This document shows, piece by piece, positions 55,408 through 63,532 of a stretch of 64,000 bases of DNA. The notes below the pieces were generated by a model. It saw only the letters and a list, made by a program, of their open reading frames with translations, did no database searches and had not been told where the DNA came from. The stretch lies in NCBI GenBank assembly GCA_013112585.1, contig JABFGH010000001.1:1-64000 (forward strand), given 5' to 3'. This stretch comes from Ignavibacteriota bacterium (GTDB lineage: Bacteria > Bacteroidota > Ignavibacteria > Ignavibacteriales > Melioribacteraceae). Each line of letters begins with the position of its first letter. Position 1 is the first letter of the stretch. The translations under genes and the position numbers were made by a program.

Positions 55408-56238
55408 ATGGAATTGGCTAACAGAAACTACGGTCTAAATTGTTTTAGAAGTTTAAATGAAGAACACTTTATTTATGCTTCCTCTCATAACCTCAAATCC
55501 ATAGAAATCCATCTCGATAAATTACACATCACTCTAGAAACATTTACACTTAAAAGAATAAATGAATTAAATAGATTAGCTGAAAAATATAATGTTAAAT
55601 TGAGTATCCATAATCCATATAATATTAATGCTTCGGATATTATTCCAACATTCAGAAAGAGTGATACAAGTTTTATGCTTGCCGGTATTAGGTTAGCAGC
55701 AGAATTACAAGCCGAACATATAACTGCCCACATTGGTAATTTTTATTGGTTTCCGGTTGAACGTTGGATGCGCAAAAAAGCACTTAATAGATTTATAAAA
55801 TGTATGGATGGAATTGTTGAGCAATGTGAAGTGAATAACATTACTTTTGCCTTAGAAAATGTAGTGCCAATCCCGCAAGGATCTGATTATTATTTTCTGG
55901 GTGATAATCTTGAAGATTTTTCATTTTTGTTTGAGCGCTTGAACTCAAAGTATTTCATGTTTTGTTTAGACATCGGTCATGCAAATGTTGCTGAGGGGGT
56001 ACTCCCCTATATAGATCACTTTGGGGAGAATATAAAAACTATTCATTTTCATGATAATTTGGGGGATGACGATACCCATCTTCCAATAGGCAAAGGAAAT
56101 ATTAATTGGAGTAAAGTTGCTAGAGCGATACAAGAAATAAATTTTACCGGACCAATAATAAGTGAATGCCGCGAATTAAAACCTCACGAAGCCGCACTGC
56201 TTTTTGAAGAGTATTTTGATGATGTAAAATCAAAGTGA
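55408..56238 (+). CDS. Sugar phosphate isomerase/epimerase-like TIM-barrel protein
   Basis: A 276-aa AP-endonuclease-2/xylose-isomerase-like TIM barrel. Metal-binding segments are recognisable: LSIHNPYNI, ITAHIGNFYW (His), FALENV (Glu), FCLDIGHANV (Asp and His), IKTIHFHDNLGDDDTHLPIGKGNINW (paired His) and GPIISECRE (Glu). ATG 55408 is chosen because it directly follows the upstream stop. An in-frame start 51 nt earlier overlaps that gene. Substrate unknown: inositol, sugar-acid and nucleic-acid enzymes share this fold. Confidence 0.85.
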   Translation: MELANRNYGLNCFRSLNEEHFIYASSHNLKSIEIHLDKLHITLETFTLKRINELNRLAEKYNVKLSIHNPYNINASDIIPTFRKSDTSFMLAGIRLAAELQAEHITAHIGNFYWFPVERWMRKKALNRFIKCMDGIVEQCEVNNITFALENVVPIPQGSDYYFLGDNLEDFSFLFERLNSKYFMFCLDIGHANVAEGVLPYIDHFGENIKTIHFHDNLGDDDTHLPIGKGNINWSKVARAIQEINFTGPIISECRELKPHEAALLFEEYFDDVKSK

Positions 56239-56271
56239 AATTTATTATTAATCAAATTTAAATATTAATTT

Positions 56272-56523
56272 CAACTGCGCTGCAGTTGGAAGCAAATCTA
56301 TACTGCTTTTCCTCAACTCCGTTTGAGGCTATTATGATTTTAACAGCTCCGCAGTTATGACGTTTAAAATACTATAGGGATTTTATTAGCTTATTATTAA
56401 TATAACAATTGTTAAGATTGTTATAGCTAAAATTTTGGAAGTACGTAGTACTTCAATTTATAATAGCTATGGATGAAATCCATAGAAAAAAAGAATTAAT
56501 ATCTGTGAACTACGAAGTAGTTC
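56272..56523 (+). repeat. Left hairpin cassette of the RAYT locus
   Basis: A series of short hairpins, most with 7-8 bp stems and a 3-nt loop: CAACTGC-GCT-GCAGTTG (56272-56288), CCTCAA..TTGAGG (56311-56328), TAACAGC-TCC-GCAGTTA (56341-56357, one mismatch), GAAGTAC-GTA-GTACTTC (56438-56454), CTATGGAT-GAA-ATCCATAG (56467-56485) and GAACTAC-GAA-GTAGTTC (56507-56523). The same order recurs on the right side of the transposase gene. Confidence 0.85.
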
Positions 56524-56557
56524 AAGTTAAATAAATTAAAATATAGAGGGATTAATA

Positions 56558-57004
56558 ATGGCAACTTATACTCAAATTCTTTATCAAATAATATTTTCCA
56601 CAAAAGATAGAGTAAAATCGATTGAAGAGGAAAAGCAGCAATTACTCTTCAATTACATTTGGGGAATCATAAAAAATAATAAATGTCATCTCTATCGTAT
56701 AAATGGAATGGATGACCATTTACATATTTTAACACATCTGCATCCTTCCATTGCACTTTCAGAATTAATCAAAGATATAAAAGTTTCATCCTCAAAAATG
56801 ATAAAAGAGGAAGAAATATTTCCAAAATTTAACGGGTGGCAAATTGGATATGGAGCATTTACATATTCTATTGATGCGAAACAAAAATTGATTGACTATA
56901 TCATTAATCAAAAGGAACACCATAAAAAGTTGAGTTTTGTTGATGAGTATAAAAATATTTTAAAAGAATTTGAGATTGAATTTGATGAGCAATATCTGTT
57001 TTGA
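56558..57004 (+). CDS. REP-associated tyrosine transposase (IS200/IS605-like Y1 HUH)
   Basis: A 148-aa single-strand transposase. The HUH metal motif is HLHIL in MDDHLHILTHLHPS (about residue 52), and the catalytic tyrosine is in QKLIDYIINQKEHHKK (about residue 113), in the usual Y1 arrangement. GAGGG lies before the ATG. It is intact in length and motifs. IS200 elements normally carry one subterminal hairpin per end. Here a whole series of hairpins flanks each side in direct orientation, the arrangement of RAYT proteins that act on REP-type palindromes. The protein is thus likely to recognise these hairpins. Confidence 0.9.
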   Translation: MATYTQILYQIIFSTKDRVKSIEEEKQQLLFNYIWGIIKNNKCHLYRINGMDDHLHILTHLHPSIALSELIKDIKVSSSKMIKEEEIFPKFNGWQIGYGAFTYSIDAKQKLIDYIINQKEHHKKLSFVDEYKNILKEFEIEFDEQYLF

Positions 57005-57028
57005 TTAGGACTATAAGTCGGAATACTT

Positions 57029-57383
57029 CAACTGCGCTGCAGTTGTACATTATTGAAAATTTTACTTCTCTCCGCACTTCGCACGGAGCTATTATAATTT
57101 TAACTGCTTCGCAGTTATAAAAAAATGCATAGTCTTAGATTGCATCACTTGGTTGGGGATGAATATAATTTTGACTACTCTCTAGTTATTAAAATTTTAA
57201 TGCTTCGCAGTTTAACTGGTTAATATTTCTATGAATATCTTATTCATAGAATAATAGTTTAGCAGAATTTAAGATCGGAAGAAAAGTTCTCGGGAAGTAC
57301 GAAGTACTTCAATTTATAATAGCTATGGATGCAATCCATAGAAATTGAGAGAAGAAATAGTTTTGAGAACTACGGAGTAGTTC
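57029..57383 (+). repeat. Right hairpin cassette of the RAYT locus
   Basis: It has the same order and orientation as the left cassette: CAACTGC-GCT-GCAGTTG (57029-57045), CTCCG..CGGAG (57070-57088), TAACTGC-TTC-GCAGTTA (57101-57117), GAAGTAC-GAA-GTACTTC (57294-57310), CTATGGAT-GCA-ATCCATAG (57323-57341) and GAACTAC-GGA-GTAGTTC (57367-57383). The middle spacer is about 100 bp longer than on the left. Stems are conserved between sides while loop triplets differ. Confidence 0.85.
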
Positions 57384-57413
57384 AAGTTGTAAAATTTAAT
57401 GCCCAATTCTCAC

Positions 57414-60323
57414 TCACAAAGCATCACCTGTAAAATCATAACTAAGTTTTTTTTGAATGCTCGCGATTTGTGAAAATGTATTTTTTAATGTGTTCTGTTC
57501 TATTTGTGTTAATTGCTCAGGATTTACAAAATTATTGGGTTCGCTGTTTTTAGAAATTGCTAAAACTTGATGCTTGATCCTAAGCTGCATAAGGAAATTA
57601 TATGCGTGAATCATTTCCAAATATGTGTTGCGGTTTAAAATATTTTTCTCAAATAAAGAATGAAATCGATCTAAAGTATTTGTATCAGAAACTGAGTGGC
57701 GCAGAGAGTAAATCCTAGCAAAATCTACTACCGGCATCATTGCTTTTTTTATGTCAAAAGTTTCGGGATGCTCACCGGATGATTTAACTACAATTTTACC
57801 AAGCAGTCCAACCGGTGGTTTATGTTCCAAGCAATTCATAGTCAAGTGCTGAAAGAATGCGGCTTTATGTTCTGTTACTTTAAATATATGCTCGCGCAAT
57901 TGATTTGCAAATTTATCATCACCGTAAACGCTCCGGAAATCGAAAAATATTCCTAACCTTAATAAGTCGTCAGGAGTAGAATTAATTATCCAATTTGAAA
58001 AATTATTTTTCCATGTATCAATCGATTGAACCCACTCGGGGTTCTTTGCCATATTATCTCCTTCGCAGAAAGAGTATCCGGCTTCATTAAGTTGATTACA
58101 TACTTGCTCGCCAAGTTTTGTGAAGTACAGCTTTGCTGACTTATTTTCATCTGCGGCATAAATTATAGCATTATCTTGATCTGTAATTAAAGTTTGTTCT
58201 TCTCTGCCTACGCTTCCAAAAGTAATAAAAGAAAATGGTACCGGCGGTTCACCAATTTCTTTAATAGTAAGTTCAACCAATCTCTTAATTATTGCATCGG
58301 AAACAGATGAAATTATTCGCGTAATATTTTTTGCCTTGGCACCGCTTTCGACCAATGTTTTTACAATTCTCGGCAGTCTTTCATAACTCTCAATAATATC
58401 CTCAGTTGAATCGGAATTGTTTATCTCTCTAATTAAAAATGAAGTTGATCCTCTTTGGATTTGCAGCAGTTCTTCACTGCTTATTGTTGCTTGAATTTTT
58501 CCGTTATTATCCCTTACTGCCAAATGTCTAGTTGATTTATTATGCATCTTTAAGAGAGCTTCAAAAATTAATGCATTAGAATTGATTGAAAGCAGGGGAG
58601 AAGTCATTACTTCAAACACAGGTTTCTGTAAATCATAGTTTCCTGCAACAACACGCTCTCTCAAATCTCTATCCGTTATAATGCCAACATATTCACCGGA
58701 ATCAGCCGTAACTAAAATTGCACTATATTTCTTTTTAGTCATCAACTCTGCAGCTTGGTAAATCGGTAAATTCATATTACATGAGACGATCTCTTTTGCG
58801 TAATACTGTATTGGGTGATTGAGAAAATAAAGCGATGTCTGTAATTCCGCAATTAAATTTTCACGCTCTTCGCTTAATTTTATTCTCTCGGTTATATCAT
58901 CAATAATTCCGTCACAATAAATTTGTGAACCTGTCTCATCATTTACTAATACTGCCGATACGGAGATAATAGATGAAATACCATCACCGCGTGTAATTTG
59001 AACTACAGCATTTTTGATCGATTCATTTTCCATTAAATTTTTTACAAAACTTTTTCTATCCTCACTATTATGAAAAAGATCAAAAATATTAACTCCATAA
59101 AGAGCTTCTTTTGATTTGTATCCAAGTAATTTTAAAACAGCCTCATTGGCTTCAATAAACTTACCCTTTCTGCCGAGTGTTGTTCGGAATACCCCAATGC
59201 TTACAATATTGGTGAGCCTATTAAATTTTTCCTTTGTTTCATCCAGCTCGCCTGTAATAATTTTTTGACTGCTTAAATCCTTAACAATAATTGTGTAGCC
59301 GGATTTATCGGCGAAATTTATTTCCGAAGCAAATAACAAAACGTCAATACTCTTGCCGGACTTTGTTTTTAGCTGTGCTTCTATTTGTGTGTCCGGCAGT
59401 TTTCCTCTTAACAATTCATAAAAATATTTTTCACCCGATGATTTGTTTTCATCACTTCCGCATAAAATATTTTTAATGCTGATATTTTCGATATCCTCTG
59501 AGGAATAGTCAAGCAAGTGGTAGATAATATTATTTGCATAAACGTACTCGCCGTCAAGAAACATAACAAGTCCCTCTGTTGATGCTTCAACCAAAGCACG
59601 ATACTTTGCTTCCGACTCTCTAAGACCTTTTTCTGCTTCCTGTTTTTTTCTTTCAATCTTTAAGCTTTGCGTGGCGATGTAAGATAAAATAACTCCAAGT
59701 AGTAAAAGAATGGCGAGTGAGATATAGAACAATCTTTTTTTAAGCTGTGCTGTTTCTTCCGCAACATCCTCAACATAAATGCCCGTGCCTATAATCCAGC
59801 CCCACTGCTTAAATCCTTTTACGTATGAAAGTTTTGGAACTATCTTAGTGGAGTCATCTTTCCATTGCCACATATAATCAACATAGCCCTCCCCATTATC
59901 GGAAACAACTTTTGCCAATTCTACAAATAATCTTTTTCCTTCAGGGTCTTTGTAATCGGATAAGTCAGTTCCGTCAAGTTCTTTTCGATAAGGATGCATG
60001 ATCATATTTGGATGCATGTCGGTAATCCAAAAGTAATCCTTTCTTTCATTGCCGTAACGCAGATATTCAATTCTAGTTAATGCTTCTTTTTGTGCTTCCT
60101 CTTTTGATAGCTTCCCTTCCTGCTCATGCTGCTCAAATTCGGCAAGGACAGACCATGCAGAGTTTGTTAACTCTTTTATCATTTCCCGTTTGCGCTCAAG
60201 TATTGTGTCTTCAAATGATGGGATAATAATAGTGAAGATAGTTAAAGTGAATAATACAAATGCCAGAAGAGTCGGTAGGATTATCCTAATAAAAAAATCT
60301 TTCCATGTACTTTGAAGCGGCAT
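57414..60323 (-). CDS. Cache-PAS-PAS-CBS-DUF294 nucleotidyltransferase sensor
   Basis: A 969-aa membrane signalling protein. A first helix (about 10-32) and a second (about 203-222) enclose a periplasmic Cache domain (FWITDMHPNMIMHPYRKELDGTD, GWIIGTGIYVEDV). Two PAS domains (about 235-355 and 360-480), a CBS pair (about 500-625, ending in GKIQATISSEEL) and a nucleotidyltransferase domain follow. The last has the GlnD-like motif FGSVGREEQTLITDQDNA (about 696), and a helical C-terminal domain (about 800-960) completes it. DUF294 proteins commonly sit beside sodium:solute symporters, as here. The usual N-terminal cyclic-nucleotide domain is replaced by Cache plus PAS. The target of nucleotidyl transfer is unknown. 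Confidence 0.9.
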   Translation of the reverse strand: MPLQSTWKDFFIRIILPTLLAFVLFTLTIFTIIIPSFEDTILERKREMIKELTNSAWSVLAEFEQHEQEGKLSKEEAQKEALTRIEYLRYGNERKDYFWITDMHPNMIMHPYRKELDGTDLSDYKDPEGKRLFVELAKVVSDNGEGYVDYMWQWKDDSTKIVPKLSYVKGFKQWGWIIGTGIYVEDVAEETAQLKKRLFYISLAILLLLGVILSYIATQSLKIERKKQEAEKGLRESEAKYRALVEASTEGLVMFLDGEYVYANNIIYHLLDYSSEDIENISIKNILCGSDENKSSGEKYFYELLRGKLPDTQIEAQLKTKSGKSIDVLLFASEINFADKSGYTIIVKDLSSQKIITGELDETKEKFNRLTNIVSIGVFRTTLGRKGKFIEANEAVLKLLGYKSKEALYGVNIFDLFHNSEDRKSFVKNLMENESIKNAVVQITRGDGISSIISVSAVLVNDETGSQIYCDGIIDDITERIKLSEERENLIAELQTSLYFLNHPIQYYAKEIVSCNMNLPIYQAAELMTKKKYSAILVTADSGEYVGIITDRDLRERVVAGNYDLQKPVFEVMTSPLLSINSNALIFEALLKMHNKSTRHLAVRDNNGKIQATISSEELLQIQRGSTSFLIREINNSDSTEDIIESYERLPRIVKTLVESGAKAKNITRIISSVSDAIIKRLVELTIKEIGEPPVPFSFITFGSVGREEQTLITDQDNAIIYAADENKSAKLYFTKLGEQVCNQLNEAGYSFCEGDNMAKNPEWVQSIDTWKNNFSNWIINSTPDDLLRLGIFFDFRSVYGDDKFANQLREHIFKVTEHKAAFFQHLTMNCLEHKPPVGLLGKIVVKSSGEHPETFDIKKAMMPVVDFARIYSLRHSVSDTNTLDRFHSLFEKNILNRNTYLEMIHAYNFLMQLRIKHQVLAISKNSEPNNFVNPEQLTQIEQNTLKNTFSQIASIQKKLSYDFTGDAL

Positions 60324-62952: not shown

Positions 62953-63532
62953 TTGTGTACCTGTGATTTGTTTTATGTAAGAGTGAATTCAATGAATGCA
63001 GATGAATTGAAGTGAAACCAGAGAGGGCGGATGAAATAGGGAAATTTATTTTTTTCATAAACCGAACAATTGCTGAACTTAGTTATTAATAACAGTTAGT
63101 ACTAATTGTCGATAAATATTTTCAAGAGACAATTAAAATTAAAAAATTTAATGGATAAAAGCATCCTTAACTTTTTTGGGATGAATTAAAAATGTTTTTA
63201 CGTTTAGTAATATTGGCTTAGTTCCCTTAATGAAAGTAAAAAAAATTATACTTTAACAGTTCCGTAGTTTATTCTGGCATTGTCATCTTTTACTACGGAT
63301 TTTGAGGCTGTATGAAAAGTAAGTTTTCCTGTCAAACTGAGTTTGCCTGCGGCAAGCAGGTTCATCGAATTTTGTTTTTAGCAATTATTCAAAGATTTTG
63401 ACAAGTCCGGCTTCCGTCAGGCAGGCTCAATCTGACACTTATTCAATATATTCAATAAATATTTATTGCAATTAACCAATTTATTGTTAAATTCATTACT
63501 GTAATAAAAAATTTAACGGTAAATATTAAATT
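62953..63532. other. Intergenic region with an inverted-repeat element
   Basis: A 580-bp spacer between the leftward symporter operon and the rightward ATPase. AT-rich, without a supported gene. It holds the imperfect inverted repeat at 63331-63434. Promoters of both flanking units are expected but no clear boxes were identified. Confidence 0.6.
63331..63434. repeat. Imperfect inverted-repeat element (GTCAAACTGAG type)
   Basis: GTCAAACTGAGTTTGCCTG on the left faces CAGGCAGGCTCAATCTGAC on the right, about 15 of 19 pairs matching, enclosing AT-rich DNA. It resembles the GTCAGATTGAGCCTG-type intergenic repeats of Ignavibacteria and other Bacteroidota. No coding capacity. Confidence 0.65.

Follow-up and report, generated by a model that had tools for sequence, protein, structure and literature searches.

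In the window, a 64-kb stretch of DNA from an Ignavibacteriota bacterium, a transposase gene, tnpA, shares an interval with a dozen hairpins (Table 1). The interval is bounded by a TIM-barrel gene on the + strand, whose end is at 56238, and by a gene for a large sensor on the - strand, which ends at 57414. The locus raises the question of what kind of enzyme is encoded there, what the repeated unit of the hairpins is, and whether the two belong together as a transposase and its DNA substrate.

The transposase and its surroundings

The product of tnpA matches the Pfam family Y1_Tnp (8e-22) and carries DHLH at residues 53-56, W94-Q95, Y114, Q118 and H121-H122. Y114, Q118, H121 and H122 are invariant across 19 TnpA relatives, and the intact relatives carry Y---Q--HH. 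An earlier note on this DNA had called the gene a RAYT; this identity was rejected because the signature is Y---Q--HH and not Y---NP, and because the score against the NCBIfam REP_Tyr_transpos (RAYT) model is 32.2 bits, below the cut-off of 80, whereas the NCBIfam IS200 model gives 60 bits, above its cut-off of 55. The Y---Q--HH motif has been described as the signature of TnpA_Y1 subclass 1.2 (Quentin et al., 2018, PMC6006769). The protein has the sequence features of that subclass (YIINQKEHH, DHLH, WQ and a length of 148 aa), by which the enzyme is assigned to TnpA_Y1 subclass 1.2. An AlphaFold model (pLDDT 89) matched the fold of ISDra2 TnpA with Z 13.3, that of IS608 TnpA with Z of about 13 and that of TnpA_REP with Z 10; the Y1 HUH transposase fold and the match to the IS200 model are both features of the IS200/IS605 family. 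Sequence search of the PDB with the single protein returned no match, and a TnpA profile used instead recovered the IS200 TnpAs. No close relatives were found in a plasmid collection.

Table 1. Positions of tnpA and the hairpin modules in the window, with E values from the covariance model
Feature	Position	Strand	Hairpins	AATAG	E	Remark
Module 1	56268..56359	- (reversed)	56272-56288 (7 bp, CAACTGC); 56311-56328 (8 bp, imperfect); 56341-56357 (7 bp, one mismatch)	56329-56333 (- strand)	1.1e-7	
Module 2	56436..56527	+ (forward)	56438-56454 (GAAGTAC); 56467-56485 (CTATGGAT); 56507-56523 (GAACTAC); all perfect	56462-56466	7.2e-12	adjoins tnpA upstream
tnpA	56558..57004	+				148 aa; predicted Y1 (HUH) transposase, TnpA_Y1 subclass 1.2 by sequence
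Module 3	57025..57119	- (reversed)	57029-57045 (CAACTGC); 57070-57088 (6/8 pairs); 57101-57117 (TAACTGC)	57089-57093 (- strand)	3e-11	adjoins tnpA downstream
Possible decayed module	57147..57215	-			0.33 (weak)	between modules 3 and 4; repeats D2/D3
Module 4	57292..57387	+ (forward)	57294-57310 (GAAGTAC); 57323-57341 (CTATGGAT); 57367-57383 (GAACTAC); all perfect	57318-57322	5.2e-11	

The three-hairpin module

The earlier note had described a cassette of five hairpins, duplicated on the two sides of tnpA, with identical stems and varying loops. Its order and orientation are indeed equal left and right of the gene, and most of its hairpins are perfect, including CAACTGC on both sides. The exception is TAACTGC, a perfect hairpin with loop TTC on the right, whose left counterpart reads TAACAGC-TCC-GCAGTTA with one A.A mismatch. 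The loops vary, left to right, in GAAGTAC (GTA/GAA), in CTATGGAT (GAA/GCA) and in GAACTAC (GAA/GGA); both CAACTGC loops are GCT. A sixth, imperfect hairpin on each side, the middle one of modules 1 and 3, had been overlooked, which brings the count to six hairpins per side, that is, two inverted three-hairpin modules. The core of the locus thus reads forward module, tnpA, reversed module, with four modules in total. Scanning of the 64-kb window with a covariance model, for which two of these four modules served as training sequences, found these four places only, with E from 7e-12 to 1e-7, and the next at E 0.09.

The nature of the unit is apparent from the arrays present elsewhere in the genome, which contain six hairpins, H1-H6, where H6-H5-H4 mirrors H1-H2-H3. 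The spacer between H1 and H2, AAGATAAATAG, reappears between H5 and H6 as CTATTTATCTT, and both arms have stem lengths of 7-8-7 with unlike stem sequences. The mirrored spacer and the common stem lengths indicate that the elementary repeat is a three-hairpin module. The five-hairpin cassette was rejected as the unit because the arrays and the relatives repeat the module and its inverse; what is conserved is the bracket of module, tnpA and inverted module, and the apparent duplicated cassette is the phase of an array around this bracket.

The module is about 93 nt long, with three hairpins of 7-8-7 bp and mostly GNA loops, and follows the formula [7-bp stem, 3-4-nt loop]-AA-9 or 10 nt ending in ATAG/A-[8-bp stem, GNA loop]-about 22 nt-[7-bp stem]-AA. 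Of 149 modules, 139 have ATAG or ATAA immediately 5' to the 8-bp stem and 6 have GTAA; H1 and H3 are each followed by AA in 147. Among the covariance-model matches, GNA accounts for 106/144 of the 3-nt loops in H1, 123/143 in H2 and 72/126 in H3, a bias that is partly built in by the training of the model on such loops. The complementary TNC loops number 0, 1 and 2, respectively, so the loops are strand-asymmetric.

The same layout was found around tnpA relatives in several phyla. The 28 loci encoding TnpA relatives that were analysed belong to named genomes, which include Melioribacteraceae, Calditrichia, several Bacteroidota families, Hydrogenedentes and Parabeggiatoa. A model-free pairing rule (at least 20 of 22 pairs) was satisfied by 21 of 47 flanks of tnpA relatives, compared with 3 of 458 control windows and none of the 940 shuffles; this hairpin-rule scan overlooked modules at several loci that were later recovered by the covariance model. 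That model, R1, was built from a plain MAFFT alignment of 25 modules, in which 97.6% of cells are paired, changes on both sides occur in 17 of 22 pairs, and the covariation score is 0.70 versus 0.05-0.11 for slid controls. Stems differ among species yet remain paired, and the suggestion of the earlier note that stem structure is under selection is upheld by the pairing and covariation. Its further idea, that the five stems are five recognition sites, is not supported: from genome to genome, any one position of the module may hold a quite different stem (37 different 8-bp stems in modules outside the window's genome), whereas the architecture, the loops and the ATAG/A motif are constant. A last rival at this level, that the hairpins are chance palindromes, starts from the AT-richness of the region, in which short palindromes are common; it is refuted by the shuffles, the cross-species covariation and the E values down to 7e-12 in the window, and its probability is negligible.

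R1 gave 260 matches in the fetched loci. When the nearest module within 200 nt of tnpA was considered at 40 loci, it was forward in 32/32 cases upstream and reversed in 28/29 cases downstream. Such a module occurs at 32 of 39 available upstream flanks and 29 of 38 downstream flanks in one tnpA clade, and in a tree of 53 TnpA proteins the enzymes bracketed by modules fall together in a single clade (38 rows, support 100/100). The REPtron-like unit with its own grammar that the earlier note proposed is supported, and its layout recurs around related tnpA genes. It is highly improbable that the modules are RNA-level elements (terminators, or mRNA-stabilising or processing hairpins) placed beside tnpA by happenstance. 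They are extragenic, near gene ends and strongly paired, and REPs do have RNA-level side roles as terminators or as mRNA-stabilising or processing hairpins; against this, no Rfam family matched the modules at gathering score, the pairing of forward and reversed copies leaves no consistent transcript strand, and the modules are tied to one transposase clade. The G.T pairs do not bear on this choice: they are rare (2.1%) but twice as frequent as A.C, the covariance model favours them, and a wobble-pair argument for DNA versus RNA was dropped because these statistics do not separate the two.

Dispersal, mobility and selection

When the left flank was used as a DNA query against the window's genome (77 contigs, 4.94 Mb), 39 related places were found, many of them repeated in tandem about every 245 nt. 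With R1, at least 120 matches were obtained at E<=0.01 and at least about 95 below 1e-4, and the dispersed copies that the earlier note had anticipated are thus present. An ORF of at least 100 aa is overlapped by 57% of random placements in those loci but by none of the 81 modules checked. Where checked, the modules are thus intergenic, and they occur as inverted pairs and as tandem arrays of alternating orientation. Eleven other genomes that carry this TnpA contain 5-40 modules each. Across 296 sampled genomes of the phylum, TnpA was found at E<=1e-25 in 113 and modules at E<=1e-4 in 28. The modules were present in 15 of the 18 genomes with a TnpA of at least about 200 bits (one of the 15 being the window's own, which contributed to R1), in 10 of 95 with lower-scoring TnpA only and in 3 of 183 without (Fisher p 4e-17 for 15/18 versus 3/183). 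Cassettes in relatives lacking the transposase, a case against the link raised in the earlier note, are mostly missing; the part that stands consists of these three genomes without a strong TnpA, one of which has a remote TnpA. Genome G133 holds twelve modules, many only about 75 nt long, but no TnpA beyond a fragment and a remote homologue of 82 bits, and a loss of the cognate TnpA is possible there.

Stem identity between scattered modules and those at the tnpA of the same genome is 0.75-0.92, compared with 0.57-0.66 for modules of other genomes (four genomes with enough data). The dominant topology of the pairs looks species-specific: among the listed pairs, those of G315 face inward and those of G311 mostly outward. 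A search of the open-access literature for exact module sequences gave no relevant paper among the matches listed.

Comparison of two congeneric genomes, G148 and G059, revealed a polymorphic site where about 344 nt containing a module pair in G148 (L173, 420-763) correspond to 25 nt in G059 between equal flanks; the comparison does not give the exact ends, and either gain or loss is possible. An orthologue search for another module pair (L172) gave no flank match. The tnpA locus is syntenic between G148 and G059, with dN 0.046, dS 0.70 and dN/dS 0.07 for the gene, and tnpA is under purifying selection. In the REPIN/RAYT pattern, repeats vary around a stationary, selected enzyme, and varying modules around a stationary, selected tnpA appear consistent with it.

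Another reading is that module, tnpA and inverted module together constitute an autonomous IS, the modules being its left and right ends and the tnpA-less pairs MITE/PATE-like miniatures. The tight bracketing of tnpA by inverted modules at nearly all loci, the tnpA-less pairs of equal topology in some genomes and the IS200 name of the NCBIfam model would fit such a transposon. It is nevertheless unlikely, because the window's genome has two tnpA copies, 77% identical to each other, versus about 100 modules, because the position of tnpA is equal in the two congeneric species at the low dN/dS given above, and because the ends would be inverted and three-hairpin, unlike the direct single hairpins of IS608 and ISDra2. 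The comparison with IS200/IS605 elements points the same way: the Y1 fold (Z of about 13) and the subterminal hairpins are shared, whereas IS ends carry one hairpin each in equal strand sense, here there are three per side, inverted, and tnpA is apparently stationary. The many near-identical autonomous copies of that family are not seen.

A second type of pair in the window's genome, with H1 hairpins inside, is 250-253 bp long and bounded by GGCTAAGTTC inverted repeats. Four such elements have 8-bp flanking duplications matching at 8/8, 7/8, 7/8 and 6/8 positions. From the inverted repeats and the duplications it follows that a DDE transposase may have moved those copies. Extended to all modules, this would make the pairs the interior of a GGCTAAGTTC element whose spread is unrelated to TnpA, a reading that we regard as very unlikely: such elements were seen, within the window's genome, only for pairs with H1 hairpins inside, no GGCTAAGTTC repeat was recognised by eye at the unit of the window, and it accounts neither for the constant bracketing of tnpA nor for the rule of orientation or the co-occurrence with the enzyme. 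The elements, most of which have recognisable module hairpins, lie at L194, L202, L206 and L219, and the window contains a decayed one near position 63215.

Some of the hairpins appear to be insertion sites themselves. Nine contigs of the window's genome break inside an apparent IS that sits in a module-hairpin loop (IS end, 1-2 nt, GGGGT), at the ends of C1, C2, C24, C11 and C32 (L044, L167, L163, L045, L171) and the starts of C15, C8, C22 and C19 (L169, L170, L051, L052), as if one IS repeatedly targeted module hairpins. In L036, the H5 loop of the second unit (about 1560-1690) is the exact insertion point of a small element that has the ends GAGGCTGTgTGAAAA and TTTTCAAACAGCCTC and is accompanied by a TTTC duplication.

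A probable composite REP and related hairpin sets

The locus is probably a REPtron-like system of TnpA_Y1 subclass 1.2 in which the REP is a composite of three hairpins and not a single one. The modules are likely to form a composite REP/REPIN/BIME system, the inverted pairs being REPIN-like, the alternating arrays BIME-like, and one pair bracketing tnpA. As in the REPtrons and RAYTs of E. coli, Pseudomonas and Stenotrophomonas, inverted palindromic repeats bracket tnpA and have dispersed extragenic copies, which occur as inverted pairs (REPIN) and alternating tandem arrays (BIME). Dispersed extragenic palindromes in such arrangements, linked to a Y1 gene, are what defines REP/BIME/REPIN elements, and the modules show all of this. 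In contrast to them, there are three hairpins per unit, the tetranucleotide is ATAG/A and not GTAG/GTGG, and the enzyme is of class 1 (Y---Q) and not class 2 (Y---NP); the modules thus depart from the arrangement that characterises REPs, in which GT[AG]G immediately precedes one hairpin on its 5' side.

In the survey of Quentin et al. (2018, PMC6006769), subclass 1.2 is given as 'no' for REP, generally without IS200-type terminal structures and at low copy number. The present system agrees with it in Y---Q--HH, DH[LI]H, WQ, 148 aa, low copy number and occurrence in Bacteroidota, and differs in having composite modules beside most enzymes of one clade. The assignment to subclass 1.2 stands despite the modules, because the absence of REPs is a reported observation and not a defining sequence feature. 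The automatic REP search of that survey accepted only single hairpins with an adjacent GT[AG]G, so the present modules would be missed. Subclass 2.6 of Bacteroidetes (PMC6006769) likewise has atypical flanking structures without a GT[AG]G tag and copies in the host genome, but its enzymes are of another class (YIH[QN]NP), and the comparison with it is by general description.

The REP that TnpA_REP cleaves in Stenotrophomonas (REP_Sm) consists of GTAG, an 8-bp palindrome and a 3-nt loop, and reversal of the loop severely impairs this cleavage (PMC8266576). The middle hairpin H2, together with its ATAG/A, repeats this layout of guide tetranucleotide, 8-bp palindrome and 3-nt loop, to which the module adds two outer hairpins. 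Because of this shared layout, H2 and ATAG/A would be the recognition and guide core, and H1 and H3, judging from the layout, would provide added contacts. We infer that TnpA binds, cleaves and mobilises the modules. The hairpins would fold when a strand becomes single-stranded; a dimeric TnpA would recognise the ATAG/A and 8-bp hairpin core together with the flanking hairpins, cut nearby via Y114 with formation of a 5'-phosphotyrosine link, and join module pairs to new single-stranded sites. Pairs would thereby spread and arrays grow, the latter possibly by recombination, while tnpA itself would usually stay in place.

The modules are real and conserved, and as repeats of the REP/REPtron type they would be new for an enzyme subclass reported to lack such repeats; an earlier description elsewhere is possible. 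TnpA of this subclass is a strong match in 113 of the 296 sampled genomes, and since the subclass was described without REPs or IS ends, its substrate had been unknown. If the module is that substrate, a widespread TnpA group gains a testable DNA target, REP units may be multi-hairpin, and the 37 different 8-bp stems constitute a natural covariation set for the reading of structure over sequence by Y1 enzymes. A large set of unannotated intergenic repeats would also be accounted for. A more speculative proposal, to which we give rather less than even credence as a whole, is a separate class of single-stranded DNA mobile repeat, whose enzyme would read a three-hairpin platform (a REP-like core with an ATAG/A guide and two needed satellite hairpins) and move inverted pairs in trans. 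Each subclass 1.2 clade might then have its own hairpin code, that is, GNA triple hairpins, 5-bp NYYCC-GTA hairpins or TNNA-loop hairpins.

Other hairpin sets were observed beside related genes. A second subclass 1.2 clade (NTYTQIYIQIVFAVK; L128-L139, L074) has short GC-rich hairpins near both gene ends, for example GCTCC-GTA-GGAGC, which were found in 20 of 26 flanks versus 20 of 216 control windows; the 'no REP' of the survey may be wrong for this clade too. Two further, distant tnpA genes of the window's genome, L003 (C13, 86863-87279) and L004 (C25, 68767-69174), are accompanied by a different set again, whose stems are 6 and 8 bp long and whose four-base loops read TNNA. A two-hairpin repeat in the same genome (L159-L166), TAACCCC-GTTA followed by aatgtttgtag and later GAACCGC, resembles the module without the middle hairpin but with GTAG.
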